The notes under the pieces were generated by a model that was given only the letters and a program-made list of their open reading frames with translations, was not told the origin of the DNA and did not search any database. From positions 496,001 through 560,000 of the forward strand of contig NZ_CP104144.1 of the NCBI RefSeq assembly GCF_025200715.1: 64,000 nucleotides of DNA. The letters are read 5' to 3'. Positions 1,799-29,256 of the stretch are shown piece after piece; positions within the stretch are counted from its first letter, which is position 1; every line of letters starts with the position of its first letter. A program made the position numbers and the translations under genes. The stretch is from Rhizobium sullae. GTDB lineage: Bacteria; Pseudomonadota; Alphaproteobacteria; Rhizobiales; Rhizobiaceae.

Positions 1799-1820
1799 GA
1801 AATCCTCCCGCGCCGGTTTT

Positions 1821-3674: not shown

Positions 3675-4139
3675 GGTATTGATTCCAAATAGATGTATGG
3701 TCGGACGCTGGCCCGAAAAGACGGCAATTCCATGAAGGAAATGGTTAGCGCGCTTACTTTTGCTGATTCTACCTGAGCGTTCAAGTAAAGAATTCACCAG
3801 CTGGTTATTTTGTCGTGAGTGACGGGCGGTGAGAACCGCAGCCCTAGCTCGATTCCAATCGGGGTAGGTGCCGCAGCACAAGAGGTTTTTTCACGATCCT
3901 TTCGGCAGACGTGACGAAGCAGGAAATCAGAAGGACGGCAGAGACCGAGGCGCAGAACAGCAAGCCGGCGGACACCGGCGAAACTGGTGGCAACACTGTC
4001 GCCAGCGATTGCACGACGGACCCGCCGAAAGTGCTCTGGCTCGCATTGTCGGCCAATGAGGACGGTTCGCCAGGGCGATCAACCTGGTCGGCGGCATCGA
4101 TGCGCAGACACGATAGACCCCATGAGATGCGCGATTGGG
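3675..4139. other. Stretch with no convincing gene
   Basis: Upstream region of the two half-exporters. Short open frames exist on both strands (for example 3844-4155 minus, with one hydrophobic stretch). None has a recognisable domain or a good ribosome binding site, and they overlap each other. The promoter of the exporter pair should lie here, but I cannot point to a specific site. Confidence 0.5.
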
Positions 4140-13215: not shown

Positions 13216-14550
13216 ATGGCTGAAACACAAGTACACTACGGACCGTCATCGCGCACACTGGAACGCGACGCCCGCAGAATTCATGACGATAAGCCGGTCT
13301 CGCCGGGCAGCATCGCGATCGGTGTCGTCATCGGGCGCATGTCGGAATTTTTCGATTTCTTCGTTTACGGCCTGGCCTCGGTTCTCGTCTTCCCGCAGCT
13401 TGTCTTTCCCTTCGCGCCGGACCGGCTGACCGCCACGCTTTATTCTTTCGCGATCTTTTCGCTGGCTTTTCTCGCCCGCCCTGTCGGCTCCGTTGTCTTC
13501 ATGACGGTCGACCGCCTTTACGGCCGCGGCACAAAACTGACGATCGCGCTCTTCCTGCTTGGCGGCTCGACAGCCTCGATAGCCTTCCTGCCCGGTTATA
13601 GCCAAATCGGCTACTGGTCGATCGCGCTGCTTGCGCTCTTTCGCCTTGGGCAGGGCTTCGCCCTCGGCGGCGCCTGGGATGGGCTTGCTTCGCTGCTGGC
13701 GCTCAATGCACCGGAACGGCACCGCGGCTGGTATGCGATGATCCCGCAGCTCGGCGCGCCGATCGGCTTTGCCCTGGCGAGCACCCTCTTCGGCTTCTTC
13801 GTTGCCAATCTTTCAAACGATGATTTCCTCTCTTGGGGCTGGCGCTACCCGTTCTTCGTCGCGTTCGCGATCAACGTCGTGGCGCTCTTTGCCCGCCTGC
13901 GTCTCGTCATGACCAAGGAGTTCGGCACGCTTCTGGAGCAGCATGAATTGGAAGCCGCGCCAATTCTCGATGTCCTCCGCATCCACGGCCGCGATATCCT
14001 GATCGGCGCCTTCGTGCCTCTCGCAAGCTTTGCGATGTTCCATCTCGTTACCATTTTTCCGCTTGGCTGGATGAGCCTCTACGGCAGTCAACCGCTCGGC
14101 ACTTTCCTGGTCGTGCAGATCATCGGTGCCATGGTCGGCATCGTCGCGATCATCGCCTCGGGCCTGATTGCCGATCGCATCGGCCGCCGCGGTCAGCTTG
14201 CCGTCTGCGCCGTGCTGATTGCGATCTTCTCGTTCATCGGCCCGATGCTGATTGCCGCCGGCGACACTGGTCAGGATGCTTTCGTCATCATCGGCTTCGG
14301 TGTGCTTGGCCTTTCGTTCGGACAGGCGACCGGTTCGATCTCTTCGCGATTCGGCCGCGGCTACCGCTACACGGGCGCAGCCTTCACGTCGGATCTCGCG
14401 TGGCTGGTGGGTGCAGGTTTTGCGCCGCTCGTTGCGCTTGGCCTGTCCAGCCGCTTCGGCCTGCCTTTTGTCGGCTATTACCTGCTTTCAGGCGCCATCT
14501 GCACGCTTGCCGCGCTTGCCTTCAGCAAGGCGCTGGAGCAGCGCGAATAG
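13216..14550 (+). CDS. MFS transporter, metabolite:H+ symporter type
   Basis: 444 residues with 12 membrane helices. The N-terminal RMSEFFDFFVYGLAS segment and the loop DRLYGRGTKLTIALF resemble the MHS (citrate/proline/dicarboxylate symporter) branch, and the second half repeats the loop as LIADRIGRRGQLAV. GAGGGAGG sits about 5 bases before the ATG. Substrate unknown; organic acids are typical for the branch. It is divergent from cyoA and followed by a hairpin terminator. Confidence 0.88.
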   Translation: MAETQVHYGPSSRTLERDARRIHDDKPVSPGSIAIGVVIGRMSEFFDFFVYGLASVLVFPQLVFPFAPDRLTATLYSFAIFSLAFLARPVGSVVFMTVDRLYGRGTKLTIALFLLGGSTASIAFLPGYSQIGYWSIALLALFRLGQGFALGGAWDGLASLLALNAPERHRGWYAMIPQLGAPIGFALASTLFGFFVANLSNDDFLSWGWRYPFFVAFAINVVALFARLRLVMTKEFGTLLEQHELEAAPILDVLRIHGRDILIGAFVPLASFAMFHLVTIFPLGWMSLYGSQPLGTFLVVQIIGAMVGIVAIIASGLIADRIGRRGQLAVCAVLIAIFSFIGPMLIAAGDTGQDAFVIIGFGVLGLSFGQATGSISSRFGRGYRYTGAAFTSDLAWLVGAGFAPLVALGLSSRFGLPFVGYYLLSGAICTLAALAFSKALEQRE

Positions 14551-14618: not shown

Positions 14619-15089
14619 TTACTGAAGGGCTGCCTGCGGCTTTTTTGCAGCACGTGCTGCCGTCAGTTCCGCGGTCGTATGGTTCAGGCGGTCGGCAAGG
14701 ACGCGCATGATCTCGACGGCGATTTCGGGAAAATCGCTGAGAAGCTTCAGGAAATGTTCCTTGCTGATGCGAAGCACTTCGAGCGCGGAGGTGGCACGGA
14801 CGGTTGCGGTACGCGACACGTCACAGAGAATGGCGATTTCGCCGACGATGGAATTAACCTCGACATCGGCGACCTTTATGTCGCCCGCAGGCGAATTCAC
14901 CAGAATATCGGCGGTTCCGGAAAGCACGACATAGGCCGCGTCGCCCGGATCGCCTTGGTGGAAAAGGTCCTGACCGGCCTTGTAGGTCATCCGGTCGGAG
15001 GTGAAGGCCAAAAGCTTGAGTTTCGCCGGGGCGACCCTTGCGAAGATCGGCACCCGCCGTAGCATTTCGACTTCATCTCTCAACAGCAT
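14619..15089 (-). CDS. Stand-alone cyclic-nucleotide-binding (CAP_ED) protein
   Basis: 156 residues, nearly all one cNMP-binding beta-roll. Visible are the AGQDLFHQGDPGDAAYVVLSG strand-loop, the phosphate-binding-cassette region NSIVGEIAILCDVSRTATVRA (cap Gly-Glu and Arg-Thr), and C-terminal helices. There is no HTH domain, so it is not a Crp-type transcription factor but a signal-binding module that must act on a partner. Family members bind cAMP or cGMP. It is the last gene of a minus-strand run with an ABC exporter and three glycosyltransferases; the gap to the exporter gene is 107 bases. A link to export or synthesis is inferred from position only. Confidence 0.88.
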   Translation of the reverse strand: MLLRDEVEMLRRVPIFARVAPAKLKLLAFTSDRMTYKAGQDLFHQGDPGDAAYVVLSGTADILVNSPAGDIKVADVEVNSIVGEIAILCDVSRTATVRATSALEVLRISKEHFLKLLSDFPEIAVEIMRVLADRLNHTTAELTAARAAKKPQAALQ

Positions 15090-15196: not shown

Positions 15197-17911
15197 TTAC
15201 GATAACAGTTCCTTGAACATACCGTTTTTCTCGGAAAGTTCCGGATAGTTCCCAGCTTCCACTAAATCACCGCGATTAAAAAGCAGAATCCGATCGAAGA
15301 TTTCTGCAAGTCTTGCGTTTGAAAGCACCCAGATAATCGCTGGACGTTTACCTTCCTCGTGTAGACCTTGAACGACATTGCGGATGATCTGATCCTGCAC
15401 ACGCTGATCGAGCGCGGGAAGCGGCCGGTTGAAGATGAAGTAATCAGAACGTTTCAAAAGCGCACGGGCAAGGTTGAGTTTTTGCCGCTGGACCATGGTC
15501 AATCGTTTGCCGCCGGAGCCGACATCGAATTCAAGTCCGATCGACAACACGTCGTCGAAAAGATCAAGTGTGTCGAAGAGTTCGCTCATGATGGTACGAA
15601 TACGATCGGACGCGTCCGCCTGTTGATAGGCGATGCGGCCGAACAGCACATTGTCCATCAGCGACGCGGATGAGGTGAAGCGCTCGGGATCGTAGCGCTC
15701 GATGAGAGCTGCCAGATCGTCCGGTATATTCTCGTGAAATTGCTTGCGGGCGCCCACGATCTTCGCCATCAGTTCATCGCTCAGCAAGCCGAAGCGGTGG
15801 CGCGGCTCGATATAGGCAAAGCTCAGCCGGATGATCATCGACCGCTCGTCGATAGTCGCATCCTCGAACCTGCGGCTCTGCAATTTCTGCAGCAATGCCT
15901 GATAGGTCGGAATATCATCCGCCGTCATGAAGGTCAGTTGCTGGAAGAAGGGGTGGTCCGGCGGCAGATCGTGGAAGAGTTCGACGGCGTTTTCGGCGAT
16001 TTCCAGACCCATCGCATAGAGGTCGTTGCTGAGGCCGGTATCGCGGAAAAGCTGCTGGAAATACGGGTGTGCCGCAAGCCTGCGGTTGTTCATCATCGGC
16101 CGTTTCATCGTGCCGAAAAGCAGGTTTTCACCGACCGTTGCCTGGGGATTGTAGTTGTCGAAGTCAAAGGGCACGACAACGGCATCGAGGTTCTCGTCCT
16201 TCATGCGTTCGCGCAGCGACCGGCGCAGATCAACGATGCGACCTGCAAGAGCAACGTGCACGCTTGTATCGACCGTCGAGCGGAGAGCAAGGTCAAGTAT
16301 GTCGTGCGAAATCAACACGGCATCGAGCACCGGCCGGATCGCCGTCAGCAGATCGTCCGGGCCGGTCGCGCCGGCGGCGTTGTAATCCACCCAGTCGCTG
16401 TTGAGGTCGAGCGTCGGGTTGCCGGCCTTCAGCGCCTCGGCGGCATGCCATTTGAAGTCCTGGGCGGCCTCGCCTTCGTAGCCCGGATCGGTCAGCGGCG
16501 CGTGCTTGAGGCCGTAGAGCAGGTTGTCACGCAACGTGCCGTGGAAAAAATAAGTATCGGCGGAAGCGTAGGAAATGCGGCGGCCGGTAATCGATTCCGG
16601 TAGTTCCAGAAGGTCGCGGCCGTCGATGCTGATACGGCCCGAGTCGGGCCAGACGATGCGGCCGAGCGCTTCTGCGAAAGCCTCCGCACCGCTGCCGTTC
16701 GGCCCGACGATCGCCACCGTCTCGTTCGGCCTGATCTCAACCGAGACGCGATCGACCAGACGCGCGCCGCTATCGTCGCTGACGGCGAGGTTACTGACGA
16801 CGAGTGCCGCCGTCAGTGGGCCGACTGCTTCTGCCGGGATTTCCTGGATCCGGCTGTCGATGAGGGGCTCGACATTGAACTGTTCATAGACCTGCTGATA
16901 CTTCACCTGAACGTCCTGGCGCATCTGATCCCAGTCGATCAATTCCTTCAATGGTCCTGGAAGATCCTTGTAGGCGCTGATGACGGCGACGAGCTGGCCT
17001 ATGTCAAGGCGCCCCTGCAGCGCCAGATAGCCGCCGATCGCGTAGAAGAGGAAGGGGGTCACCTGAGCCAGGAAGTTGTTCAGGAACTTCACCAGGAATT
17101 TCCACTGGTAAAGGTCGTAACGAATTGAAAAGATCAGGCCGAGACGCGTAGCGATGTCAGCACGTTCCAGGTTCGAGGTGTCATTGCCGTGGATCGTACC
17201 GATCCCCTCGACAATCTCGCCGACGCGGCCGGAAAGCTCGCGGGCCGTCAACTGGCGCTGGCGGCCGAGCTCGAGCAGCCGTTTTCTCATACGCGGAATG
17301 ATGACCGCCTGCACGCCGACGATTGCTGCTGCAATCATGCCGAGCCAGAAATTCTGGACAATGATGAAGGCAAGCGCCGTCAGCGCCTGGCCGCCGAGAA
17401 GGGCAGGCGAGACAAAAGCATCACCCGTGAAGCCGCCCATCGGCTCCACCTCGTCCTTGATCATCGTGGCAATTTCAGCAGATTTCACGCGCTTGAAATG
17501 AACGGGCGGGAAACGCAGCACCCGGTCGATCAATTGAAACCGGATACGCCGCAGCATCCGTTCGCCGAGGCGGCCCTTATAGGTGTTGATATAGAACTTG
17601 AAGAGGCCGTTCAGCACCACCAGTGCCAGGAAGACGAGGCTCAGCGCCATCAGCGTCTGCAGCCGGTTGAGCTGCAGACCCTCGAAGAATTCGACATGCC
17701 CGATCAGCGGGATGTCGTAGGCAATATGCATGAAGGTCTGCCTCGCATTCGCATTCTCGAAGCCATCACCCTGGATCGGTCCGTTGACGATCTGTTTCGG
17801 CAGATCGAAGGACAGGAAGTAAGGGACCATCGAGACGGCGACCACGGCCAGAATCCAAAGCTGCTGCCGGCGCGTGTTCGACCAGATATAGCGGGCGAGG
17901 CTTTTTTCCAT
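15197..17911 (-). CDS. Large ABC-exporter-like protein with degenerate, expanded nucleotide-binding domain
   Basis: 904 residues, against about 600 for a normal half-exporter. Residues 15-320 are a six-helix exporter membrane domain. The ATPase domain starts normally (VEIRPNETVAIVGPNGSG, 391-408), but the Walker A Lys-Ser/Thr is replaced (GSGAEAF). The signature region reads GSGGKRLTMVQRQ (799-810), Walker B is DYFIFNRP (823-830, no Asp-Glu), and the switch His is replaced (WVLSNAR). About 250 extra residues lie between the Q-loop region and the signature. They contain repeated versions of the post-Q-loop motif: LRDNLLYG (460-467), VGENLLFG (593-600), MDNVLFG (752-758). It probably cannot hydrolyse ATP by itself. 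It is next to three glycosyltransferases, so a glycan-related role is an inference. The start at ATG 17911 gives a sensible N-terminal helix. Confidence 0.9.
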   Translation of the reverse strand: MEKSLARYIWSNTRRQQLWILAVVAVSMVPYFLSFDLPKQIVNGPIQGDGFENANARQTFMHIAYDIPLIGHVEFFEGLQLNRLQTLMALSLVFLALVVLNGLFKFYINTYKGRLGERMLRRIRFQLIDRVLRFPPVHFKRVKSAEIATMIKDEVEPMGGFTGDAFVSPALLGGQALTALAFIIVQNFWLGMIAAAIVGVQAVIIPRMRKRLLELGRQRQLTARELSGRVGEIVEGIGTIHGNDTSNLERADIATRLGLIFSIRYDLYQWKFLVKFLNNFLAQVTPFLFYAIGGYLALQGRLDIGQLVAVISAYKDLPGPLKELIDWDQMRQDVQVKYQQVYEQFNVEPLIDSRIQEIPAEAVGPLTAALVVSNLAVSDDSGARLVDRVSVEIRPNETVAIVGPNGSGAEAFAEALGRIVWPDSGRISIDGRDLLELPESITGRRISYASADTYFFHGTLRDNLLYGLKHAPLTDPGYEGEAAQDFKWHAAEALKAGNPTLDLNSDWVDYNAAGATGPDDLLTAIRPVLDAVLISHDILDLALRSTVDTSVHVALAGRIVDLRRSLRERMKDENLDAVVVPFDFDNYNPQATVGENLLFGTMKRPMMNNRRLAAHPYFQQLFRDTGLSNDLYAMGLEIAENAVELFHDLPPDHPFFQQLTFMTADDIPTYQALLQKLQSRRFEDATIDERSMIIRLSFAYIEPRHRFGLLSDELMAKIVGARKQFHENIPDDLAALIERYDPERFTSSASLMDNVLFGRIAYQQADASDRIRTIMSELFDTLDLFDDVLSIGLEFDVGSGGKRLTMVQRQKLNLARALLKRSDYFIFNRPLPALDQRVQDQIIRNVVQGLHEEGKRPAIIWVLSNARLAEIFDRILLFNRGDLVEAGNYPELSEKNGMFKELLS

Positions 17912-18102: not shown

Positions 18103-19236
18103 TCAACCGAGCATCGATCGGATGATCGAAGCGGTTGTCCCGGCGCCTGTCAGATCGAGCGCGACTTCCTTTCTGGCCGGCGCTGCAAGCGCGCTTTCGA
18201 CCGCCGCGGCCACATGCTCGGCCGTCAATCCTTGCTCCGGAAGAATAGTGGCAAGACCCATCGCCTGCAGGCGCTCGGCCCGCACAGTCTGCTCCGTTTC
18301 GCCGCCGGCGACAAAGGGAATGAGGATCGAGCAGCAATCCGCATGCAGCAGGTCTCCGATCGTATTGTAGCCCGCCTGCGAGATCGAGACCTTCGCGCCG
18401 CGCAGCAGGGAAGGAAAGTCCTTGCGGAAGCGCGTGAGCCTGATGTTAGCGGGCGCATTCCGGCTCAGGCCTATAAAGTCCGCTTCCGGCAAATTGGGAC
18501 CGGTAACGAGCAGCCAGCGATGGCTTTCGGGGAGCATGGCGGCTGCATCGCGGGCCGCGCGGATCAGGTCCAGGCCAACGGCTCCGCCGCCCGCAGAGGC
18601 AATGATGTCGAAGATTTCCGCTGGCTCGGCCGCTGGTGCTGCTGCAACGAGGCCTGTGTAATGCACCTTGTCTGCGATTTCAGCTGTCAGCCGAAAGGTA
18701 TCTTCGAGCCGCACGAAATCCGGATCACCGTGAATAAGCACGGCATCGAAGTGGCGCTTCACCAGGTCGACGGTTTCCTCGTCGCGCCCTGGCTTGCGGT
18801 TTTCCTGCAGGATGTCGCGCACGGAGGTGAAAAGCTTCGGCCGCGGATCGGTCTTTTCGATCATATCGAGCAGCGGCAGCAACTCGAAACGCATCTGCCG
18901 CCGGCCGAAGGGGAAGGCCTCGATTATGACGGCGTCCGGCTTCGCCTCTTGAAACGCTGCAAGCAGCAGATCGCGACGTCGCGAGAGAAACTCCTCGCCG
19001 GCGACATTGCCGTCGGCGTCCGCAAGGCCAGAAAAGCCTGCATTGCTGGCGACGACCGCTGGCAGCGCTACGGTCTTCACGCCGTCGCCGGGAAAACCGG
19101 AAACCGGCAGGCCGCCGGTCACGATCGTCACATCGAAGCCGTCCTTGGCCAAAGCGTCCGCAATGCGGCTTGCGCGCGCGATATGGCCGATGCCGAGTAG
19201 GTGCTGGACGTAGAAGAGGATGCGTTTTGCACTCAT
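18103..19236 (-). CDS. GT-B glycosyltransferase, MurG/GT28-like
   Basis: 377 residues. The N-terminus RILFYVQHLLGIGHIARASR carries the Gly-rich loop of a MurG-like GT-B fold, and the C-terminal half holds AGYNTIGDLL and FVAGGETEQTVRAERL, the sugar-nucleotide-binding region of that class. It shares this plan with the protein at 20492-21700, so the two are likely paralogues. The start at ATG 19236 overlaps the stop of the upstream glycosyltransferase as ATGA; the longer reading to 19251 would lie inside that gene. Acceptor and sugar are unknown. Part of a three-glycosyltransferase operon. Confidence 0.87.
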   Translation of the reverse strand: MSAKRILFYVQHLLGIGHIARASRIADALAKDGFDVTIVTGGLPVSGFPGDGVKTVALPAVVASNAGFSGLADADGNVAGEEFLSRRRDLLLAAFQEAKPDAVIIEAFPFGRRQMRFELLPLLDMIEKTDPRPKLFTSVRDILQENRKPGRDEETVDLVKRHFDAVLIHGDPDFVRLEDTFRLTAEIADKVHYTGLVAAAPAAEPAEIFDIIASAGGGAVGLDLIRAARDAAAMLPESHRWLLVTGPNLPEADFIGLSRNAPANIRLTRFRKDFPSLLRGAKVSISQAGYNTIGDLLHADCCSILIPFVAGGETEQTVRAERLQAMGLATILPEQGLTAEHVAAAVESALAAPARKEVALDLTGAGTTASIIRSMLG

Positions 19237-20480
19237 GAGGGTTTTTGCCATTCCTCTTCAAAGAGGCGTATTAGCTGCTTTACGCTGGAATGATAGTCGA
19301 AATGTTCACGCACGCGTTTTTCCGCCGCATCGCCGAGACGGCGGCGCAGTGCCGGATCACGGATTGCCGCCTCGAGTGCATAAGCGAGCGCCTGCGGATC
19401 ATCGGGCGGAACGACAAGACCGTTCTCACCGTTGGTCAGCAGTTCAGGAACGCCTGAAACATCGGTCGAAAGGCACATCAATCGCTGGCTCGACGCCTCG
19501 ACCAGCACGTTCGGCAAACCGTCCCGATCGCCGTTGGATGCGATACGGCACGCAAGCGCGAAGAGATCAGCCTGGCGGTAATGGCCGAGCACCTCCTCCT
19601 GCGCCATTGCGCCTTTCCAGCTTATCTTGCCGGCAAGCCCGAGCTCTGAAGCGAGAGCTCTCAGCTTGGCAAGTTCATCACCACCGCCGATATGCTCGAA
19701 ACGCCAATGCAGGCTTTTCGGAAGCAGGGCAAGCGCGCACAGCAGCACGTCGTAGCCCTTCTTTTCGACCGCCCGGCCGACGCTCAACAGAAGAACCGGA
19801 TGGGCAGGGTCGGCGCCGTCGCGGCCTGAATGTTGGCCTTCGAAATGGCCGAAGCGGGCCAGATCGAGGCCGTGATAGCTGAGATGCACCGCATCCGGCC
19901 GGTCGGTTAGGCTGCGCATATGCTCGTAGCCGCTCCTGGTGCATGTCACTGCCCAGCGGGCGCTGCCAAGTTTGATATTTAACTCCCAGTCGGGCGACGT
20001 CCAAATGTCTTTCGCATGTGCCGAGACGGTCCAGGGCACGCCCGTCAGGATGCTTGCATATTCGGTCACAGAAGCAGGTGTGTGGATGAAATGCGCGTGC
20101 AGCCACTGGCCGCTATCCGGCCATTCGCAAGCCAGGACCAGCGCCTGACCGAGGCGGCGGAAGCGGTTGCGGGACATATCGCGCGGCAGATCGGCCAGGA
20201 AGCGCTTCATCAACGCCTTGAATCCCGGCTTTCCGACGCCGGCGAAAAGTCCCTTCAGTACGCGCATCGGCTCTTCGTGCAAGTATTCCGGCAGGTAGAC
20301 GACGCGGGCCTTGATCTCGTCATGCACTGGATGGCGTTTCTTGTCGGTCGGCCGCCTCATCGAAATCAGCGTCAGGTCGAAGCCTGCTTTTTCCAGGCCA
20401 AGCAACTCTTGGGCAATGAAGGTTTCGGAAAGGCGTGGGTAGCCTTTCAGCACGACAAGGATCTTGCGGCGTTCCGGCAA
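19233..20480 (-). CDS. Glycosyltransferase family 4 (colanic-acid-type)
   Basis: 415 residues, GT-B fold. The N-terminal half contains GYPRLSETFIAQE, typical of the WcaL-like/colanic acid branch, and HAHFIHTPA. The C-terminal GT1 domain has LLSVGRAVEKKGYDVLL, a DGLPNVLVEA donor-site motif and NGENGLVVPPDD. It transfers an activated sugar to a growing glycan on the cytoplasmic side. It is coupled to the next gene by ATGA and lies 11 bases after the preceding glycosyltransferase, so all three are one operon. Confidence 0.9.
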   Translation of the reverse strand: MPERRKILVVLKGYPRLSETFIAQELLGLEKAGFDLTLISMRRPTDKKRHPVHDEIKARVVYLPEYLHEEPMRVLKGLFAGVGKPGFKALMKRFLADLPRDMSRNRFRRLGQALVLACEWPDSGQWLHAHFIHTPASVTEYASILTGVPWTVSAHAKDIWTSPDWELNIKLGSARWAVTCTRSGYEHMRSLTDRPDAVHLSYHGLDLARFGHFEGQHSGRDGADPAHPVLLLSVGRAVEKKGYDVLLCALALLPKSLHWRFEHIGGGDELAKLRALASELGLAGKISWKGAMAQEEVLGHYRQADLFALACRIASNGDRDGLPNVLVEASSQRLMCLSTDVSGVPELLTNGENGLVVPPDDPQALAYALEAAIRDPALRRRLGDAAEKRVREHFDYHSSVKQLIRLFEEEWQKPS

Positions 20481-20491
20481 GGCTTTGTTCT

Positions 20492-21700
20492 TTACTCTGC
20501 GCCGACGACGGCAAGACGGCTGCCGCGATTGTCGAGCCAGTGGCCGACTGTCTGCGAAATATGATCGAGCCCTTCGAGTTGCATATCGCTTCCGCTCTTT
20601 GATGGCGGCAGGCGTTGCGGCAGCCGCTTCAGCGCCTCGGCCATGACGGTCGGATCAGCCGACTGATCGGGAAGCAGCATGTCCACCAGGCCGAGGGCGC
20701 TGGCGCGCTGGGCGCGCAGCAACTGCTCTTCCCTCGGCTTGATGCGCGGCACGATGAGCGCCGGCTTGTCGAAGGAAAGGATTTCGCAATAGGTGTTGTA
20801 GCCACCCATGGCAACGACGCCCGTGGCGCCGACGATGAGCTCTTCCATATGGTTGTCGAACTCGATCACCTCGATATAGGGAATCTTCTCGCCCTTCCTG
20901 ACGAGTTTCGACCGCTCGGCTGCCGGCATATAAGGCCCGAGTACGACCAGTGCTTTTTGCTCAAGCGTCGCATCATGCTCATAGGCGTTCATCACGTCAT
21001 GAACGAGGTCGGAGCCATCCCCGCCGCCGCCGGTGGTGATGAGGATGTAGTCGTCCTTGCGGGCATTGATCGAGGTGTTTCCTTTCGAAACGCTGCGCTG
21101 CAGGAAGCCGACGAAGTCCATTTTCCGGCGCACGCTTTTCGGGACATCGAGGCCGATCAGCGGATCGTAGAACTCGGGCGGCCCGTACACCCAAACGCTG
21201 TCATAATACTGGTCGATCTTCTGCATGATGCCGTTTCGCTTCCACTCGGCGTCGAGCAGATGCGGCGCATCCATGATTTCGCGGAGACCGAGCACCAATG
21301 TCGTGCCCTGCGCCTTCAGATAAGCAAGCGTATCTTCGACTTCGCCCTTGAGTCCCATCGGCTCCTTGTCGACGATGAAGATGTCCGGTTGGAAGGTCTC
21401 AGCCGTATGGCGGATGCTCGATTCGCGCATCTTCAGCGTTTCGTGCAGGTCGATATGGCTCGCCATCGACGTATATTCGCCGTTATGAAGTTTGATCACG
21501 CTGGGGATCTTCACGAAATCGACGCGCGCCCGGTAGTCGAACGCACCGGCGATCGTTGCGCCGGAAATGATCAGCACATTGAGACCGCGATAATCCTCGA
21601 CCAGCGCATGTGCGATTGTCCTACAGCGGCGCAGATGGCCGAGCCCGAACGTGTCGTGGCTATACATCAGGATGCGAGCATCTTCCACGCGTCTGGCCAT
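20492..21700 (-). CDS. GT-B glycosyltransferase-like protein, GT28-like
   Basis: 402 residues. The N-terminal ARILMYSHDTFGLGHLRRC loop matches the MurG-like Gly-rich motif seen also in the protein at 18103-19236. The middle has YILITTGGGGDGSDL and the C-terminal half GGYNTYCEIL ... KPREEQLLRAQRA, the donor-binding pattern. I use ATG 21700 because AAGGA lies 7 bases upstream. ATG 21727, nine codons earlier, is also preceded by a G-rich stretch and cannot be excluded. First gene of the glycosyltransferase operon; the target glycan is not identifiable. Confidence 0.85.
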   Translation of the reverse strand: MARRVEDARILMYSHDTFGLGHLRRCRTIAHALVEDYRGLNVLIISGATIAGAFDYRARVDFVKIPSVIKLHNGEYTSMASHIDLHETLKMRESSIRHTAETFQPDIFIVDKEPMGLKGEVEDTLAYLKAQGTTLVLGLREIMDAPHLLDAEWKRNGIMQKIDQYYDSVWVYGPPEFYDPLIGLDVPKSVRRKMDFVGFLQRSVSKGNTSINARKDDYILITTGGGGDGSDLVHDVMNAYEHDATLEQKALVVLGPYMPAAERSKLVRKGEKIPYIEVIEFDNHMEELIVGATGVVAMGGYNTYCEILSFDKPALIVPRIKPREEQLLRAQRASALGLVDMLLPDQSADPTVMAEALKRLPQRLPPSKSGSDMQLEGLDHISQTVGHWLDNRGSRLAVVGAE

Positions 21701-21793
21701 GGGCAGTTCCTTCGGGGCGAACGACATACTTAGACCCCCAATTTTCCGGAGGCCGAGACATGGCAGAACGGAATATCTCCGCCGCGCTTGCTG

Positions 21794-22966
21794 CTATTTG
21801 TAGGGATCTGCTGCATCGCGCAACCCATCTCCCAGAAAGTTGAAGGCCAAAATGACAAGAACCACCGGAATGATCGGGAAAAGCAGCCACGGGTAAAAGG
21901 CGATGACACTGACGCTCTTGGCCTCGGTGAGCAAGATGCCCCAACTGGTGATCGGCGGACGGAGGCCGAGGCCCAGGAAGGAAAGCGCCGTTTCGCCAAG
22001 GATCATGCCCGGAATCGAAATCGTTGCAGAGGCAATCAGATGCGACATGAAGCCGGGAACAAGGTGCCGCCCGATGACCCGGGGCGTGCTTGCCCCCATG
22101 AGCTGGGCAGCTTGCACGTAATCCTCCTCACGCAGTGCCAGAAGCTTGGAACGCACCGCACGTGCAAGCCCGGTCCAATCGATGATACCGAGGATGACGG
22201 TGATGCCGAAATAGATGACGATCGGGCTCCACGTCACCGGCATGATGGCCGCAAGGGCCATCCAGAGCGGCAGGCTCGGCAGCGACTGCAGCACCTCGAT
22301 TACGCGCTGGACGATGAGATCGAAGACGCCGCCCCAATAGCCGGCAAGGCCGCCGATGACGATGCCGAGCACAAAGCTGATCGCGATGCCGAGCAGGCCG
22401 ATCGTCAACGAAATCCGCGCGCCGTAGAGGATACGGGAAAGTACGTCGCGCCCGAGACGGTCGGTGCCGAACAGGAACATCTGGCCGCCTTCTGCCGGGC
22501 AGACAAGATGAAGATTAGACTGAACGAAGCCCCAGAACCTGTAGGAATCGCCACGGCAGAAGAAACGGATCGGCTGAACGTCGTCCGGTTTGTCGGTATA
22601 GATCCGACGCAGCGTGTCGAGGTCGAGTTGCATCGCGCGGCCATAGACGAAGGGACCGACGAACTCGCCCTTGTCGAAGAAGTGCACGCGCTGGGGCGGG
22701 GAATGGATGTAATCGACATTGCGCGTGTGCAGGCCGTAAGGCGCCAGAAACTCGACGACCAGGATCATCAGATAAATGGCAAGCAGGAAGATGCCGGAAG
22801 CCAGCGCCAGACGGTGCTGTTTGAACTTCCACCACATCAGTTGCTTCTGGGAAGCAAGGTGAATGCGCGAATTCGCAGCCGTCATCGTTTCCGTGGCGAT
22901 CGGATCGAACGGTGCGGTCGAGACGTAGTGCTGCAAGGGAGCGCCGGGCGGCGGCAAGGGCGACAT
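21794..22966 (-). CDS. ABC importer permease, peptide/opine type (YejE/DppC-like)
   Basis: 390 residues with an N-terminal helix (about 54-75), a long periplasmic insert, and a C-terminal five-helix permease domain holding the EAA loop (DYVQAAQLMGASTPRVIGRHLVPG). The insert between the first helix and GTDRLGRDVLSRILYG is typical of YejE-like subunits and longer than in DppC. It imports peptides or opine-like compounds together with the neighbouring permease, binding protein and ATPase. The start overlaps the stop of the upstream permease by one base (ATGTC/TAATG arrangement), so the two are coupled. Confidence 0.92.
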   Translation of the reverse strand: MSPLPPPGAPLQHYVSTAPFDPIATETMTAANSRIHLASQKQLMWWKFKQHRLALASGIFLLAIYLMILVVEFLAPYGLHTRNVDYIHSPPQRVHFFDKGEFVGPFVYGRAMQLDLDTLRRIYTDKPDDVQPIRFFCRGDSYRFWGFVQSNLHLVCPAEGGQMFLFGTDRLGRDVLSRILYGARISLTIGLLGIAISFVLGIVIGGLAGYWGGVFDLIVQRVIEVLQSLPSLPLWMALAAIMPVTWSPIVIYFGITVILGIIDWTGLARAVRSKLLALREEDYVQAAQLMGASTPRVIGRHLVPGFMSHLIASATISIPGMILGETALSFLGLGLRPPITSWGILLTEAKSVSVIAFYPWLLFPIIPVVLVILAFNFLGDGLRDAADPYK

Positions 22967-23964
22967 TATTTGGTGCTCCTGCCTTGCAGACGGATGCGCG
23001 GGTCGAGGAAGCCAAGCGCAATATCGGAAACCAGCACGCCAATGACATTCAGGAAGGCAAGGAACATCAGGAAAGAACCGGCAAGATACATATCCTGGCT
23101 CTGCAGCGCCTTGATCAGCATCGGGCCGGTCGTTTCGAGCGACAGCACGATGGCGACGATCTCGGCGCCGGAAATGATCGACGGCAGGATCGAGCCGATG
23201 TCGGCGACGAAGAAGTTGAGCGCCATGCGCAGCGGATATTTGATCAGCGCACGGGTTGGATGAAGGCCTTTGGCGCGCGCAGTCGTTACATATTGCTTCT
23301 GCATCTCATCCAGCAGATTGGCGCGAAGGCGGCGGATCATGCCGGCCGTACCTGCCGTGCCGACGATAATGACGGGGATCCAGAGATGGGACAGGATCGA
23401 CCGCGCCTTCTCCCAGCTCATAGGCTCGGAGAGGTATTTCTGATCCATCAGATGGCCGATCGAGATGCCGAACCAGATATTGGCGAAATACATTAAGATC
23501 AGCGCCAGCATGAAGTTCGGAATGGCGATGCCGAGCAGACCGAGGAACGTCAGTCCGTAGTCGCTCCAGCTATATTGATGGGTGGCGGAATAGATGCCGA
23601 TCGGAAAAGCAATCAGCCAGGTGAGCAGGATCGTCGTGAAAGAAACGAGAATCGTCAGCCATAGGCGGTCGCCGACTACTGCCGAAACCGGCAGCTGGTA
23701 TTCGAACGAATAGCCGAAATCGCCGTGCAGCATGCCGCCGACCCAGTAGACGTAGCGGATGATCGTCGGCTTATCGAAGCCGTATTGCTGACGCAGCTCC
23801 TCGATTTCCTGCAGGTTCGCACTCTCGCCCTGCGCCCGCAGTTCGGCGATCTGGCTTTCGAAGAAATCGCCCGGCGGCAGTTCGATGATCGTAAAGACGA
23901 GCGCCGAAATCACGATCAGCGTCGGCACCATCGCGGCAATCCGCCATAGGATATATTTCAGCAC
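22966..23964 (-). CDS. ABC importer permease, peptide/opine type (YejB/DppB-like)
   Basis: 332 residues with six membrane helices. The N-terminus MLKYILWRIAAMVPTLIVIS is the standard DppB-like opening, and the EAA loop reads YVTTARAKGLHPTRALIKYPLR. It forms the inner-membrane channel with the second permease. It lies one base after the binding-protein stop and is coupled downstream. Substrate class is inferred from the family only. Confidence 0.93.
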   Translation of the reverse strand: MLKYILWRIAAMVPTLIVISALVFTIIELPPGDFFESQIAELRAQGESANLQEIEELRQQYGFDKPTIIRYVYWVGGMLHGDFGYSFEYQLPVSAVVGDRLWLTILVSFTTILLTWLIAFPIGIYSATHQYSWSDYGLTFLGLLGIAIPNFMLALILMYFANIWFGISIGHLMDQKYLSEPMSWEKARSILSHLWIPVIIVGTAGTAGMIRRLRANLLDEMQKQYVTTARAKGLHPTRALIKYPLRMALNFFVADIGSILPSIISGAEIVAIVLSLETTGPMLIKALQSQDMYLAGSFLMFLAFLNVIGVLVSDIALGFLDPRIRLQGRSTK

Positions 23965-23965
23965 C

Positions 23966-25876
23966 TCACGCCTCCTTCAGCCAGAAAGCATCCGGCATGT
24001 AGATGCCGAGATAGGAGGTTGGATCGAAACCGTAGAGCGCCCGCTCCGGCACATTCTGCATCTTGGCAGAACGCAGGATCGGCTGCAGGGCGCCGTTGAT
24101 GAGTCCGATCGAGAAAACCTGCTGTGTATAGATCGACAGCATCTTATGCCAGATCGCTTCCCGCTCGCGGAAGTCGGCAGTGGCACCCCACTGGTTGAGG
24201 AGGTCGACGAGCTCGACTGCCTCAGGCAGGTCGGGCGCACTGCCCTCCTGACCGGCAGAGAGATAATGCATGCCCCAGATCGGCCATTGCAGCTGGTCGT
24301 CCACGGTTGGCGCGAGCTGGTTAGGCGCCATATCGGCGGTCGGAACGCCGTTCTCGATGCCGAACCATGTCGACATCATGATCGCGCCGCTCATGGCGCG
24401 GCTCTGGAAGACGTCGCGCTGAGAAGTTCGCGTGTAGAGCGCGAGCCCGATATTCTTCCAATGATCGTGCACGAGTTCGAGGACGTCGGTATCGAGCGTG
24501 CTCTCACCGGCAGTTTCAACGATGATTTCCGCTCGCCGTCCGTCCGGCAGTAGGCGGAAGCCTTCGCCGTCACGCCTTGCAAGGCCGAGTTCGTCAAGCA
24601 GGCGGTTGGATTCATTTGGATCGAACTGGATGAAGGCGTCGGCATATTCCTGCTTGTAGAGCGGGCTGTCCTGCAGGACGGTGTCGGCGCTCGGCCTGCC
24701 GAGGCCGTAGAAGGCCACCATGTTGATTTCGTGCCGGTCGATCGAAAGCGACAGCGCCCGGCGGAAGCGAACGTCGCGGAAGAGCTTCCGCCAGGTTTCG
24801 TCGGCGCAATTGAGGTTCGGGAGCAGCGCGATCCGCGATCCGCGCGCCTGCTTCCAGAGATTGACCTTTACCGGGAAACGCTTCTCGGCCTCCTTCAGGA
24901 AGGTATAGTCGTTGAAGTCGATACCGGTCGCCTGCAAGTCGGATTCACCCGCACCCGCTTTGGCCGCGATGATCGACGACGAGCTGACGTTCACGACAAA
25001 GCGGTCAATATAGGGCAGTTGCATGCCGTTTTCGTCGACGCGATGGAAGAATGGGTTGCGGATGAAAATGAATTGGTCGGCTGGCGGCGCTGTCGTGTTG
25101 CGCCACGGATCGAGCGTCGGCAGTTCTGGATTTTCCGGACGCGAGGCGCGCGACATCTTGATGTGCAGGTCGACCCATTTCTTCGCGCGGTTCTCGCGCA
25201 TGAGTGCGGAAAGCCGGAAGTCATCCTGGTATTTCTTGTGGAACTGCTTGAGGTAATGCGCGGGACCGAAGATGACGAGCGGCAACGGGCCGGCGAGCGC
25301 CGGCAGGAAATTCGGGTTGGGCTTGTCCCAACTGTAGCGGACGGTGAATTCGTCCAGTACCTCGAAACGCGGAAGCGTGCCGTGAGGTCGCAGTTCGAGC
25401 GCGCCGCCGCCGGGCGTCAGGGCTTTGTCGAGGATGACGTCTTCCCACCAGTAGCGGAAATCGTCGGACGTGAAGGGATGGCCGTCGGACCATTTGTGGC
25501 CTTCGCGCAGGTGGAAGGTGAAGACGGCATCATTTTCCGAAGTATAGCCGCCGAGGATATCCGGCTGGAACCGCAGGTGCTTGTCGTAACCGACAAGGCG
25601 CGAATAGCCGTAAACGGTCATGTAGCGGATGTCACGGGCGCTGCCGATAATGGTACGCACCGAACCGCCGTAGACGCCAGGCGTCAGGCCGGCCTCCTTC
25701 ATGTTGACGATGCGCGGATGCTTCGGGATCCGCTCGACCATCGGCGGAATACGGCCTGCCCTCAAAAGGTCGCGCAGGAATTCCGGCTCGATATCACGGT
25801 CGCCCACAGCATATGCGATCGAGGGTCCGAAGGCTGAGCCGATAAGGCCGCCGAGAAAGGTTCGGCGGCTTACCAT
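23966..25876 (-). CDS. ABC importer substrate-binding protein, family 5, Tat-type signal
   Basis: 636 residues, solute-binding protein family 5 (peptide, opine, oligosaccharide). The N-terminus has a twin-arginine-like signal, [11 protein letters not shown], ending AYA. The body shows FTFHLREGHKWSDGHPFTSDDF, the usual family 5 signature, and later FRDVRFRRALSLSIDRHEIN. Family members average 500-550 aa; this longer type is found with YejBE-like permeases. The ATG at 25876 lies inside the last codons of the ATPase gene (7-base overlap). A Tat signal would mean export as a folded protein. Confidence 0.92.
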   Translation of the reverse strand: MVSRRTFLGGLIGSAFGPSIAYAVGDRDIEPEFLRDLLRAGRIPPMVERIPKHPRIVNMKEAGLTPGVYGGSVRTIIGSARDIRYMTVYGYSRLVGYDKHLRFQPDILGGYTSENDAVFTFHLREGHKWSDGHPFTSDDFRYWWEDVILDKALTPGGGALELRPHGTLPRFEVLDEFTVRYSWDKPNPNFLPALAGPLPLVIFGPAHYLKQFHKKYQDDFRLSALMRENRAKKWVDLHIKMSRASRPENPELPTLDPWRNTTAPPADQFIFIRNPFFHRVDENGMQLPYIDRFVVNVSSSSIIAAKAGAGESDLQATGIDFNDYTFLKEAEKRFPVKVNLWKQARGSRIALLPNLNCADETWRKLFRDVRFRRALSLSIDRHEINMVAFYGLGRPSADTVLQDSPLYKQEYADAFIQFDPNESNRLLDELGLARRDGEGFRLLPDGRRAEIIVETAGESTLDTDVLELVHDHWKNIGLALYTRTSQRDVFQSRAMSGAIMMSTWFGIENGVPTADMAPNQLAPTVDDQLQWPIWGMHYLSAGQEGSAPDLPEAVELVDLLNQWGATADFREREAIWHKMLSIYTQQVFSIGLINGALQPILRSAKMQNVPERALYGFDPTSYLGIYMPDAFWLKEA

Positions 25877-27765
25877 GCACGTAGTTCCTTTGCATCGGCA
25901 CCCTTGCGGGCGCGCACTAGGTGGCCGTTGCCGAGATCGGCATAGGCGAGCTCTGACGCGTCGTCATGTTCAGCGGTAAAGGTTATGCCCCAGTTCTGCT
26001 TGTCGGCGGCGCCGTTCTTGCGTAGCGCCTCGAAATCGAGCGGCCGGTCGAGATCGGGGAAGGGCACGGCGGCAAGCAGCGACTTCGTGTAGGGATGCAC
26101 CGGGTCCCGCAAGATGATCTCGCGCGGGGCGATTTCGACGATGCGGCCCTTGCACATCACCGCGATACGATCGGCCATATAGTCGACAACCGCGAGATTG
26201 TGCGAAATGAAGAGGTAGGTCAGGCCGAGCTCTTTCTGCAGATCCTTCAGCAGATTGAGGATTTGCGCCTGCACGGAAACATCGAGTGCAGAGACCGGTT
26301 CGTCGAGGATGATGAGCTTAGGACCGAGAGCAAGGGCGCGGGCGATGCCGATGCGCTGGCGCTGGCCGCCGGAGAAGCTGTGCGGGTAGCGGCTCAGGTA
26401 GCGCCGGTCGAGGCCGATCGCGCCCATCAGCGCTTCGACCTTCCGCTTGCGTTCGGCGCCGTCTCCGCGGTCATGGATTTCCAGCGGCTCGCTCAGGATG
26501 TTGCGCACTGTCATGCGCGGCGACAGCGAGGAGACCGGATCCTGGAACACCATCTGGATCTTGGTGCGCAGCGCCTGCAGATCGTCGCCCTTGACGGAAA
26601 GAACGTCGATCACGTCCTTGCCGTCGTTGAAGATCACCGAGCCGCCGTCGGGCGTGACCGCGCGCATCAGGATCTTGCTGACAGTGGTCTTGCCGCAGCC
26701 GGATTCGCCGACGAGCCCCAGACATTCGCCCCGCTGGATATCAAAGCTGACGTCGTCGACGGCCCGCACGACCGCGGCTTCATCCCTACCAAAAAGGCTG
26801 CGCTTGCGGGTCGTAAAGGCCTTGGAGAGGTTGTTGACCGAAAGCAAAAGCTTCGGGGCGTCCGTATCCGCCATCTGCTTTTTGCCAAGGAACGATTCCA
26901 GATTGACCGGCACATCGCGCAGGGCCTTCAGCCGCTCGCCAGGCTTCATGTCGAAATGTGGCACGGCAGCCATCAGGCCCTTGAGGTATGGATGTTGCGG
27001 ATTGCGGAATATCGCATTCACGGGCCCAGCTTCCATGATTTCACCGTGATAGATCACGACGACTTCGTCGGCCATATTGGCGACGACGCCGAGATCATGG
27101 GTAATGAGCAGCATGGCCATGCCGAGTTTGTGCTGCAACTCGCGCAGCAACTCGAGAATTTGTGCCTGGATGGTCACGTCGAGCGCCGTCGTCGGCTCGT
27201 CGGCGATCAGCAACGCCGGCCTGCAGATCAGGGCCATCGCGATCATCGCGCGCTGGCGCATGCCGCCTGAAAGCTCGAATGGATACATGTCGTAGGTGCG
27301 TTTCGGATTGGCAAAGCCGACAAGGCCGAGCATCTCTTCGGTTCTTTCGCGCGCTCGCTTCTTATCGGCGTCCGTGTGGATCAGCAGCACTTCGCTGATC
27401 TGGTTGCCGATCGTGTGGAGCGGCGAGAGCGAAGTCATCGGTTCCTGGAAGATCGTTGCCATGCGCTGGCCGCGCAGATCCCGCATTTCCTCGCTGTCGC
27501 GGCCGAATTGCAAGATATCGGTAGTCTCGCCATTGAGTGGATCGGTGAAAAGAATGCGGCCGCTTGCCTTTGCGGCGTTCGGCAGGATGCCCATGATCGA
27601 CTGGCTGATGACCGATTTGCCGGAGCCGGATTCACCGACCAGTGCGGTCACCTTTCCCGGAAGAACGCGCAGTTCGGCATTTTTTACAACGCGCAGCTTA
27701 TCCCCGAACACCGAGAATGAAACGTCAAGGTTCTCGATACGCAATAAGTCGAACGCGGACGCCAT
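25870..27765 (-). CDS. ABC importer fused double ATPase, peptide/opine type (YejF-like)
   Basis: 631 residues with two complete nucleotide-binding domains. The first has Walker A GESGSGKS, signature LSGGMRQR and Walker [13 protein letters not shown]. The second has [17 protein letters not shown] and [12 protein letters not shown]. Each carries the oligopeptide-type C-terminal extension with [12 protein letters not shown] and [12 protein letters not shown]. It powers the importer formed by the next three genes. It is the first gene of the four-gene operon ATPase, binding protein, permease, permease. No regulator gene is adjacent. Confidence 0.94.
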
Positions 27766-27912: not shown

Positions 27913-29256
27913 CTACTGAACGAATCTCTCGACCGTTGGCCGCTTCGCCTGCTTCTTGGCGTCGCGGTGGAGCAGGATGACCTGTTCGGCTTCGGAAAGG
28001 CCGTTCGGGGCGACTTCGCGGAAACCGCCTTCAATGGCGAGTGCCGGTGCGGGAGCGCGCGGCTGAAGGATCGTCACCTTCTGGCGGATGCCGCGCAGCT
28101 TCTCTTCGCCGAGGGTCGTCCATTCGCCGCCGCAATAGCCGGCAAACGCCTGGCTGGCAACGACCTCGCGATTATACTTCTTGGTCAGTGCCTGCAGGCG
28201 CTGGACCTCGTTGACGGCCGAACCGAAGGCCGAAAACGTCAGGCGGTCCTTGAGGCCGACATTGCCAAGCATCACGTTGCCGATATGCAGTCCGATGCCA
28301 TAGCTGATCGCGCCAAGACCTTTTTCGGCGCGTTCGTTATTGAGTTCGGCAACGCGGGCCTGCGCCTGATAAACGGCGGAAAGGGCCGCCTGCGAGGCAA
28401 TCTTCGACGGATCCTTGTGACGGCCGCAGGGATAGACAGCGAGGAAGCCGTCACCCAGGAAGCTCAGGATCTCGCCGCCGTTGCGGTTGAACGGTGCTGC
28501 TATCGCGTCGAAAAATTCGTTCAGCGTGTCGATATAGGCCTGCCGGCCTTCCTTTTCGGCATACATCGTCGACTGGCGCATATCGCCCATCACAAGGGCG
28601 GCTCGGATCGTTTCTCCGTCGCCGCGGCGGATCTGGCCGTTCAGCACGCGCTTGCCTGCATCGCCGCCGAGATAAGTCGTCAGCATGTTGTTTGCGAGCT
28701 TGCCGAGCACGGCCATCTTGGCGGCAACGGCCAGATGATTCTGCATGCGCAGCAGCGCATCGATCATGTCGTCGGAAAAACCAAAATGATTGTCCGTCGA
28801 CCACGAACCCATCATGCCCTGGACAGAACCGTCGCCGAAGGGCTGCACGAAAGCAAGATAGTCGGTGATCTTCTCGGCGCGAAGATCCTCGAAGATCGGG
28901 AATTCCGCCGGGCCATCGAGCGGGATGCGGCGGCGGATATGCTGGAGATTGTTGTCCAGCAGATAATAATAGGGGCTTTGGAGAAAACGGTCGGGCTTTG
29001 CGCCTACCGAATGGCGATAGCCCTCGATCGTGACGCCGCTCGCCCGCCGCCAGGTAAAACCCAAAGCGTCATAGAGCGGATGAAGCATCGAAAACGTCAG
29101 GTGCACGCGCGCGATCGGCAGGCCGGCGGCAGCAATCCGCTCGCAGAAACCGCGAACGATGTTCTCGAGATCATCACCTGCAAGCGAAGAATGTGTCAGC
29201 CATTCGGCGACGCGGTCCAGAAGGATGGAGGACACGCTGGATTCGATCGTGCTCAT
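27913..29256 (-). CDS. Class III nucleotidyl-cyclase-domain protein with N-terminal sensory region
   Basis: 447 residues, soluble. Residues 1-200 are a sensory-like region found with some rhizobial cyclases, containing YYYLLDN and FGDGSVQGMMGSWST. The catalytic domain is at about 218-400, with metal ligands Asp225 (MGDMRQST) and Asp269 (FLGDG) and the transition-state Asn and Arg in VNEVQRL. The base-recognition Lys of classical cyclases is Ser265. It may make cAMP or cGMP, or be a weak or altered cyclase. The start at ATG 29256 is chosen because the longer frame (to 29346) has no family-like sequence. It lies about 150 bases downstream of the ABC importer and reads in the same direction. Confidence 0.87.
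   Translation of the reverse strand: MSTIESSVSSILLDRVAEWLTHSSLAGDDLENIVRGFCERIAAAGLPIARVHLTFSMLHPLYDALGFTWRRASGVTIEGYRHSVGAKPDRFLQSPYYYLLDNNLQHIRRRIPLDGPAEFPIFEDLRAEKITDYLAFVQPFGDGSVQGMMGSWSTDNHFGFSDDMIDALLRMQNHLAVAAKMAVLGKLANNMLTTYLGGDAGKRVLNGQIRRGDGETIRAALVMGDMRQSTMYAEKEGRQAYIDTLNEFFDAIAAPFNRNGGEILSFLGDGFLAVYPCGRHKDPSKIASQAALSAVYQAQARVAELNNERAEKGLGAISYGIGLHIGNVMLGNVGLKDRLTFSAFGSAVNEVQRLQALTKKYNREVVASQAFAGYCGGEWTTLGEEKLRGIRQKVTILQPRAPAPALAIEGGFREVAPNGLSEAEQVILLHRDAKKQAKRPTVERFVQ

Follow-up and report, generated by a model that had tools for sequence, protein, structure and literature searches.

A conserved ABC exporter-like protein of Alphaproteobacteria with lost ATPase motifs and a cyclic-nucleotide-binding partner

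We analysed a stretch of 64,000 nucleotides (the window; NZ_CP104144.1, positions 496,001 to 560,000) that sits on a 2.76-Mb replicon of a Rhizobium genome (Rhizobium sullae). One of its genes (15197-17911, minus strand), an intact open reading frame (ORF) and the sole full-length match within its own genome, codes for an ABC exporter-like protein of 904 amino acids (aa) that has lost the ATPase motifs, is conserved in both halves and is accompanied by a cyclic-nucleotide-binding (CNB) protein. The lost motifs, the conservation and the CNB partner suggest a transport protein that is switched by a signal, not driven by ATP. The reading that we favour, tentatively, is that of a cyclic-nucleotide-switched, probably ATP-independent permease or flippase of the ABC fold that in most cases works in a glycan pathway.

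What defines an ABC exporter is motion driven by ATP. A large and conserved family in which the motifs are lost, the membrane half is kept and a CNB module is present would show a motor becoming a signal-gated device. It raises the questions of whether ATP hydrolysis is dispensable for a working ABC fold, which targets bacterial cAMP or cGMP have beyond transcription, and which glycan the widespread cluster makes.

Architecture of the protein

The protein combines an MsbA-like membrane half with an ATPase half that contains an insert of about 265 residues. Its parts are as follows, with the basis of each assignment in brackets:

15197-17911, minus strand: degenerate ABC exporter-like protein, 904 aa (ORF, Pfam, motif alignment)
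16877-17911, minus strand: N-terminal part with the exporter-type transmembrane domain, residues 1-345 (Pfam; match to MsbA, Sav1866 and P-glycoprotein chains)
16682-16705, minus strand: degenerate Walker A, residues 403-410, K409 to A and S/T410 to E (alignment)
16559-16561, minus strand: Q-loop position 451, Q to A (alignment)
15692-16486, minus strand: insert in the ATPase domain, about residues 476-740, borders approximate (Pfam, NCBIfam, hhalign)
16097-16300, minus strand: repeat unit A, residues 538-605, with TVGENLLFG (hhalign)
15623-15802, minus strand: repeat unit B, residues 704-763, with SLMDNVLFG (hhalign, motif counts)
15488-15502, minus strand: altered signature LTMVQ, residues 804-808 (alignment)
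15425-15448, minus strand: Walker B region, residues 822-829, D-E to N-R (alignment)
15320-15322, minus strand: switch His position 864, H to S (alignment)

A preliminary description of the gene had called the membrane half normal, and indeed it carries an exporter-type transmembrane domain, as recognized by Pfam (ABC_membrane, residues 85-312, 2.4e-15) and by a profile search that matched exporters of solved structure, including chains of MsbA, Sav1866 and P-glycoprotein. In the ATPase half, ABC_tran matches residues 387-485; the NCBIfam exporter models match two stretches of the protein, the second at about 748-903, and a profile of 133 homologues compared with solved B-family exporters matched in these same two blocks, separated by a long stretch without a match. 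The best NCBIfam model, TIGR02203 (MsbA), scores 178 bits and misses its cut-off of 602. The family shares with the half exporters of the MsbA/B family (the lipid A flippase, Sav1866, the P-glycoprotein halves; its PDB profile matches were to ABCB4, MsbA and Sav1866) the membrane domain and the overall order of the ATPase domain, but differs from them in having no whole ATPase motif, in its insert and in its CNB partner.

The insert, together with a few flanking residues, holds two related units of about 60 residues (hhalign probability 98.2, E 5.8e-14, in a single comparison). Each contains an N-[LV]-LFG string, and the Asn of this string does not vary: N754 is present in 92/92 non-redundant family members, and N596 and N754 are both invariant in the 133-row alignment. 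A similar string follows the Q-loop (residues 458-467), with weak profile similarity to the units (probability 38-45). A reading of the insert as a series of Q-loop copies is therefore only partly supported: the two units are alike, and the Q-loop stretch resembles them weakly.

Loss of the ATP site in the family

Motif columns were read by aligning the family with seven ordinary exporters encoded in the same genome, which are canonical at these columns (7/7, with two exceptions, one signature Gly and the Walker B Glu, at 6/7 each). The preliminary description had listed the Walker A Lys, the Walker B Asp-Glu and the switch His as missing and the signature as altered, and the alignment confirms each of these changes: K409 and S/T410 are replaced by Ala and Glu, LSGGQ by L804-T-M-V-Q808 (T805-M806-V807 for S-G-G), D828 and E829 by Asn and Arg, and the residue in the switch His column is S864, not N865. 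The Q-loop Gln is replaced as well (Q451 to Ala), and the A-loop aromatic, reading the alignment by eye, is also gone. The retained residues are the Walker A glycines 403 and 408, G801, Q808, R809 and the D-loop D835. As a result, none of the five motif sets considered (Walker A GK[ST], Q-loop, LSGGQ, Walker B DE, switch His; 0/5) is intact. Because the protein lacks the motifs by which an ordinary exporter is recognized, we file the family as an apparent new variant of the ABC exporter fold; a description of such a degenerate ABC family was not found in the open-licence literature searched.

These losses are shared by the close relatives. The close set comprises 200 rows, of which 182 are distinct: the best 120 listed proteins and 80 loci, with the window protein among them. 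Not one of these rows has K409, S/T410, Q451, S805, G807, D828, E829 or H864, and G806 occurs in 12. A sequencing error, which the preliminary description had allowed for, is thereby excluded as the cause, since not one close row restores these eight residues. More widely, three protein searches were made, each listing the best 120 of thousands (360 listed proteins), and the motif alignment, which omitted eight named rows (L090-L093 and L096-L099), earlier ORFs no longer than 700 aa and exact duplicates, comprised 98 rows, or 92 non-redundant members after removal of near-duplicates. All five motif sets are present in none of the 92, two in seven, one in 20 and none at all in 65. A normal Walker A is correspondingly rare among the orthologues checked: GK[ST] occurs in 1/92 non-redundant members and in 2/360 listed proteins, in no case with the full motif set.

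The residues that remain bear on one alternative, namely that the degenerate site binds ATP or another nucleotide without hydrolysing it, as in ABCC1 and CFTR, the CNB protein then being a second input. The Walker A glycines and the D-loop Asp are kept, some relatives have the Lys, Glu or His, and PMC7756269 describes degenerate sites of ABCC1 and CFTR as holding ATP for minutes. The same paper, however, describes the other site of these two proteins as able to hydrolyse ATP, and here the A-loop aromatic, the Lys, the Ser/Thr, the Gln and both Walker B acids are gone, with an acidic residue at position 410 in 65/92 non-redundant members. We regard a non-hydrolysing nucleotide sensor of this kind as quite improbable.

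Selection and spread

The preliminary description had concluded that the gene, long and intact, is being kept for some purpose, and substitution rates bear this out. Comparison of the window gene with seven orthologues at 86-97% identity gave an overall dN/dS of 0.042-0.094; by part, the seven pairs spanned 0.026-0.049 in the membrane half (the lowest of the parts in most pairs), 0.036-0.072 in the C-terminal ATPase part, 0.064-0.128 in the insert and 0.042-0.154 in the N-terminal ATPase part. These low values show purifying selection on the degenerate ATPase half. Conservation is highest in the membrane domain, where its mean is 0.93.

The loss of every catalytic motif would also fit a decaying gene or a sequencing artefact, and the Sinorhizobium meliloti 1021 record does read a stop at residue 225. 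Against this, the 182 distinct close rows are alike, almost all of the best 120 proteins listed by the first search are 904 aa long or nearly so, dN/dS is below 0.1 overall, and the copies of S. meliloti 2011 and R14 are open to residue 904. The shared losses in the close rows and the low dN/dS refute a pseudogene reading of the window gene, and the chance of decay or artefact is negligible. The S. meliloti 1021 copy (pSymB; L253, NC_003078.1, 16001-18710) is one base longer than those of strains 2011 and R14.

The distribution of the family was assessed with residues 471-770 (300 aa) as the query. Matches were found in 122/397 sampled genomes of the order, 131/385 of the class and 31/398 of the phylum; all 31 phylum matches fall inside the class, the share of the 398 sampled genomes that lie outside the class not being visible. 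Plasmid records gave 261 matches at E 1e-60, mainly from Rhizobium and Sinorhizobium, and also from Azospirillum, Ruegeria and Sulfitobacter. Judged by these matches, the 904-aa protein is the Rhizobium member of a family widespread in Alphaproteobacteria.

The cyclic-nucleotide-binding partner

The gene that follows the ABC gene in the window encodes a small protein:

14619-15089, minus strand: stand-alone CNB protein, 156 aa, with phosphate-binding cassette (Pfam cNMP_binding, 1.1e-19)

The cNMP_binding domain occupies residues 34-118, and no HTH or other DNA-binding domain was matched by Pfam. With cNMP_binding as its sole domain, the protein seems not to be a DNA-binding regulator of the Crp type; an S. 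meliloti record nevertheless gives its counterpart that name. The cassette residues Gly-Glu...Arg are present (GEIAILCDVSRTATV), and they are conserved: in the rows with a separate CNB gene, Gly is found in 46/46, Glu or Asp in 46/46 and Arg in 45/46 (one of these 46 rows being an unrelated CNB gene of L193), and the Arg is found in 12/14 rows filed as fused, a set that includes L200, which was placed there by ORF length and whose CNB protein is encoded by a separate gene. Cyclic-nucleotide binding by the window protein is predicted from this cassette. The Thr that follows the cassette Arg resembles that of cGMP-binding kinases, which we presume to be a lead at most.

To see how regularly the two proteins go together, we compared 60 loci (55 genomes), hand-picked for spread from the order and class matches (at least 251 matching genomes), with 40 controls, which are arbitrary stretches mostly from the same genomes. 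Locus contents were taken from gene maps and HMM searches, some stretches being cut by contig ends. The CNB gene lies just downstream of the ABC gene in 45/60 loci, and in 13/60 the CNB domain is fused to the C-terminus of the ABC protein (for example residues 881-1024 and 867-1018 of the Azospirillum and Sulfitobacter plasmid proteins). A CNB partner is thus adjacent or fused in 58/60 loci, as against a CNB gene in 2/40 controls (Fisher p 1e-22, the loci being taken as independent, which they are not fully). Among the loci scored as adjacent, L155 has a CNB ORF directly downstream despite the entry 'none' in its gene map, and in L183 one short called gene separates the ABC and CNB genes. On a FastTree tree the fused and separate forms are related by at least two changes, as forced by the starred branches. 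Of all the links of the family, this association is the firmest.

A gene cluster with glycosyltransferases

The remaining genes of the window cluster are:

18103-19251, minus strand: glycosyltransferase GT1, MurG-like C-terminal domain (Pfam, gene maps)
19233-20480, minus strand: glycosyltransferase GT2, GT4 type (Pfam, gene maps)
20492-21727, minus strand: glycosyltransferase GT3, MJ1255/MurG-like (Pfam, NCBIfam, gene maps)
21794-22966, minus strand: peptide-type ABC permease, OppC/YejE-like (gene map, model match)
22966-23964, minus strand: peptide-type ABC permease, OppB/YejB-like by position and synteny only (ABC transporter permease annotation in R. johnstonii)
23966-25876, minus strand: peptide-type substrate-binding protein (gene map, model match)
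25870-27765, minus strand: double-ATPase subunit, GsiA/YejF-like (gene map, model match)
27913-29256, minus strand: putative nucleotide cyclase, possible first operon gene (Pfam Guanylate_cyc, 1e-7, on the longest ORF)

Read along the minus strand, the putative cyclase gene comes first, then those of the double ATPase, the binding protein and the two permeases, then the three glycosyltransferase genes, and last the ABC and CNB genes. The intergenic gaps are -19 to 191 bases, and the genes are probably co-transcribed as a putative operon. The same gene order is found on R. johnstonii pRL11 and, over the part that its gene table covers, on S. meliloti pSymB; there are orthologues with both the same motif losses and the same neighbours. 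The putative cyclase gene ends 147 bases before the double-ATPase gene; its start was taken from the gene map, which gives it the length of the R. johnstonii gene (its place is the same in S. meliloti), whereas its longest ORF would begin with TTG and extend to 29346. A nucleotide cyclase is encoded within about 9 kb in 26/60 loci, as against 3/40 controls. What the preliminary description had said of the gene being kept stands, and the regulated channel that it had put forward is still a candidate; it missed that the CNB protein is the steadiest and sometimes fused companion, and it missed the cyclase in the putative operon and the alphaproteobacterial spread.

Glycosyltransferases like those of the window are found near 42/60 loci and 0/40 controls, and on the Azospirillum and Sulfitobacter plasmids the fused form lies beside glycosyltransferases, a histidine phosphatase and a polysaccharide deacetylase. 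None of the three window-type glycosyltransferases was found near 18/60 loci (L150-L154, L160, L166, L167, L173, L178, L191-L193, L195, L200, L204-L206). The glycan link is strong, not universal, and it is looser than the CNB link because 16 of these 18 loci still have a CNB partner.

These counts cut both ways for the notion that the protein does not transport at all and is a scaffold, its membrane half acting as an anchor and its rebuilt ATPase half organising the glycosyltransferases, with the CNB protein switching assembly or enzyme activity. The frequent glycosyltransferases, the family-wide loss of the ATPase motifs and the invariance of N754 in the insert region while the catalytic residues drift are all in keeping with it. 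A membrane domain that is the most conserved part, with a low dN/dS, goes beyond the needs of an anchor, however, and the CNB partner is kept at 16 of the 18 loci near which no such glycosyltransferase was found. We hold a scaffold to be unlikely, though the least so of the alternatives.

A further possibility is that the motor is borrowed, either from a canonical ATPase encoded elsewhere or from the Yej-like double ATPase of the cluster. Such a double-ATPase gene is found near 27/60 loci, though also in 9/40 controls, and Opp-type permease or binding-protein genes occur near 18/60 loci versus 2/40 controls. The arrangement in the window is Yej-like, with scores below the model cut-offs (ATPase 512 bits versus 834 for YejF, permease 118 versus 439). 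This ATPase has its own permeases beside it, however, and a second exporter-like gene was found near just 1/60 loci, a count that covers the surroundings of the ABC gene. The partner with its own ATPase that the preliminary description had offered as one option accordingly finds little support within the distance covered, as does a heterodimer with a neighbouring exporter, and a borrowed motor appears very improbable.

Proposed mode of action

Taken together, a conserved membrane half, a dead motor and a CNB partner in 58/60 loci speak for a membrane protein under the control of a signal, in most cases within a glycan pathway, and a gated permease or flippase accommodates them better, in our judgement, than a scaffold, a nucleotide sensor or a borrowed motor, in that order. 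In this gated protein, the ATPase half would no longer be an ATPase and would have been rebuilt as a regulatory platform with the repeat-containing insert. The CNB subunit, encoded by a separate gene here and present as a fused C-terminal domain elsewhere, would bind the cyclic nucleotide and dock on this platform, and its conformational change would gate or position the membrane half. The latter may flip the product of the neighbouring glycosyltransferases down its gradient, pass it through a gated path or present it, and the cyclase encoded alongside would supply the signal nucleotide. A narrower version, in which the cyclic-nucleotide switch has replaced the ATP motor in a bacterial, homodimeric, ATP-independent gated flippase or channel that has its CNB subunit or fused CNB domain acting on it directly and controls export of an uncharacterised alphaproteobacterial glycan, is doubtful as a whole.

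Several observations weigh against the gated permease or flippase. Motif loss is family-wide yet graded outside Rhizobiaceae, because some relatives keep the Lys and other residues: the Walker B Glu is kept in 29/92 non-redundant members, the switch His in 16/92 and the Lys in 26/92, the Lys is also kept in 76/120 proteins listed by the second search (in both sets the next residue is mostly Glu or Asp), and the best of the 360 listed proteins, a single one, retains 3/5 motif sets. This goes against the simplest version of the proposal. The window's protein itself retains the D-loop Asp and the signature Gln-Arg; it has presumably lost ATP hydrolysis, it may still bind ATP, and the movement of cargo is a prediction. 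The loci without window-type glycosyltransferases are a further such point, as are the 34/60 loci near which no cyclase was found. Finally, the target loci themselves supplied the sequences for the CNB and cyclase models, a bias in favour of these loci, and no CNB gene was found by gene map and HMM search near the divergent L167 and L195, which could not be placed in the gene map and were counted as lacking one. In both loci the ORFs, near 8.1-11.0 kb, belong to a divergent 863-aa branch.

Exporters with one degenerate site (TAP, CFTR, TM287/288, BmrCD), which are already known and well described, show the same loss of catalytic residues within a kept ATPase domain. BmrCD and TAP pair a degenerate with a canonical site. 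PMC7756269 describes this pairing for exporters with one degenerate site, the canonical site hydrolysing ATP. By contrast, the window protein is degenerate throughout, and no exporter partner was found nearby in 59/60 loci.

CFTR is an ABC-fold ion channel whose opening depends on a cyclic-nucleotide pathway, this control running through PKA phosphorylation and ATP. The analogy is one of working principle only, since here the CNB subunit or domain would act directly and channel activity is not known. A CNB protein in an ABC export operon is also found with the cyanobacterial NHLP/bacteriocin exporters, which carry a peptidase and a canonical ATPase. The window CNB protein matches the NHLP-context model TIGR03896 weakly (44 bits, cut-off 161); unlike in those exporters, no peptidase was found by Pfam in the window's ABC protein, and its ATPase motifs are lost.

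Minor observations

An MBL-fold hydrolase gene lies near, and mostly right after, the CNB gene in 22/60 loci and 0/40 controls (e.g. L165:7638-8459); the enzyme is possibly a cyclic-nucleotide phosphodiesterase. In L194 (11531-13225) and its cluster-16 relatives, the CNB gene has as its neighbour a nucleotide cyclase that carries a 2Fe-2S ferredoxin domain, which suggests a redox input.

On its other side, the window CNB gene adjoins an MFS transporter gene (13216-14550), likely, from gene order, to be the counterpart of R. leguminosarum pRL110043, which an INSeq study (PMC11406972) reports as required for root attachment at pH 6.5 and 7.0. With regard to the Yej-like genes, PMC9790009 assigns YejBEF-YepA a role in peptidoglycan recycling in Agrobacterium, and also refers to a glycan cluster of that organism which is uncharacterised and includes a putative ABC exporter.

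A DUF3095 protein is encoded at 31035-32210 of the window, and also near 5/60 loci and in 1/40 controls. Two ordinary ABC exporter genes lie at 1-3881, about 11 kb from the degenerate gene; because one of them has Asp in place of the Walker B Glu, their products may form a heterodimer.

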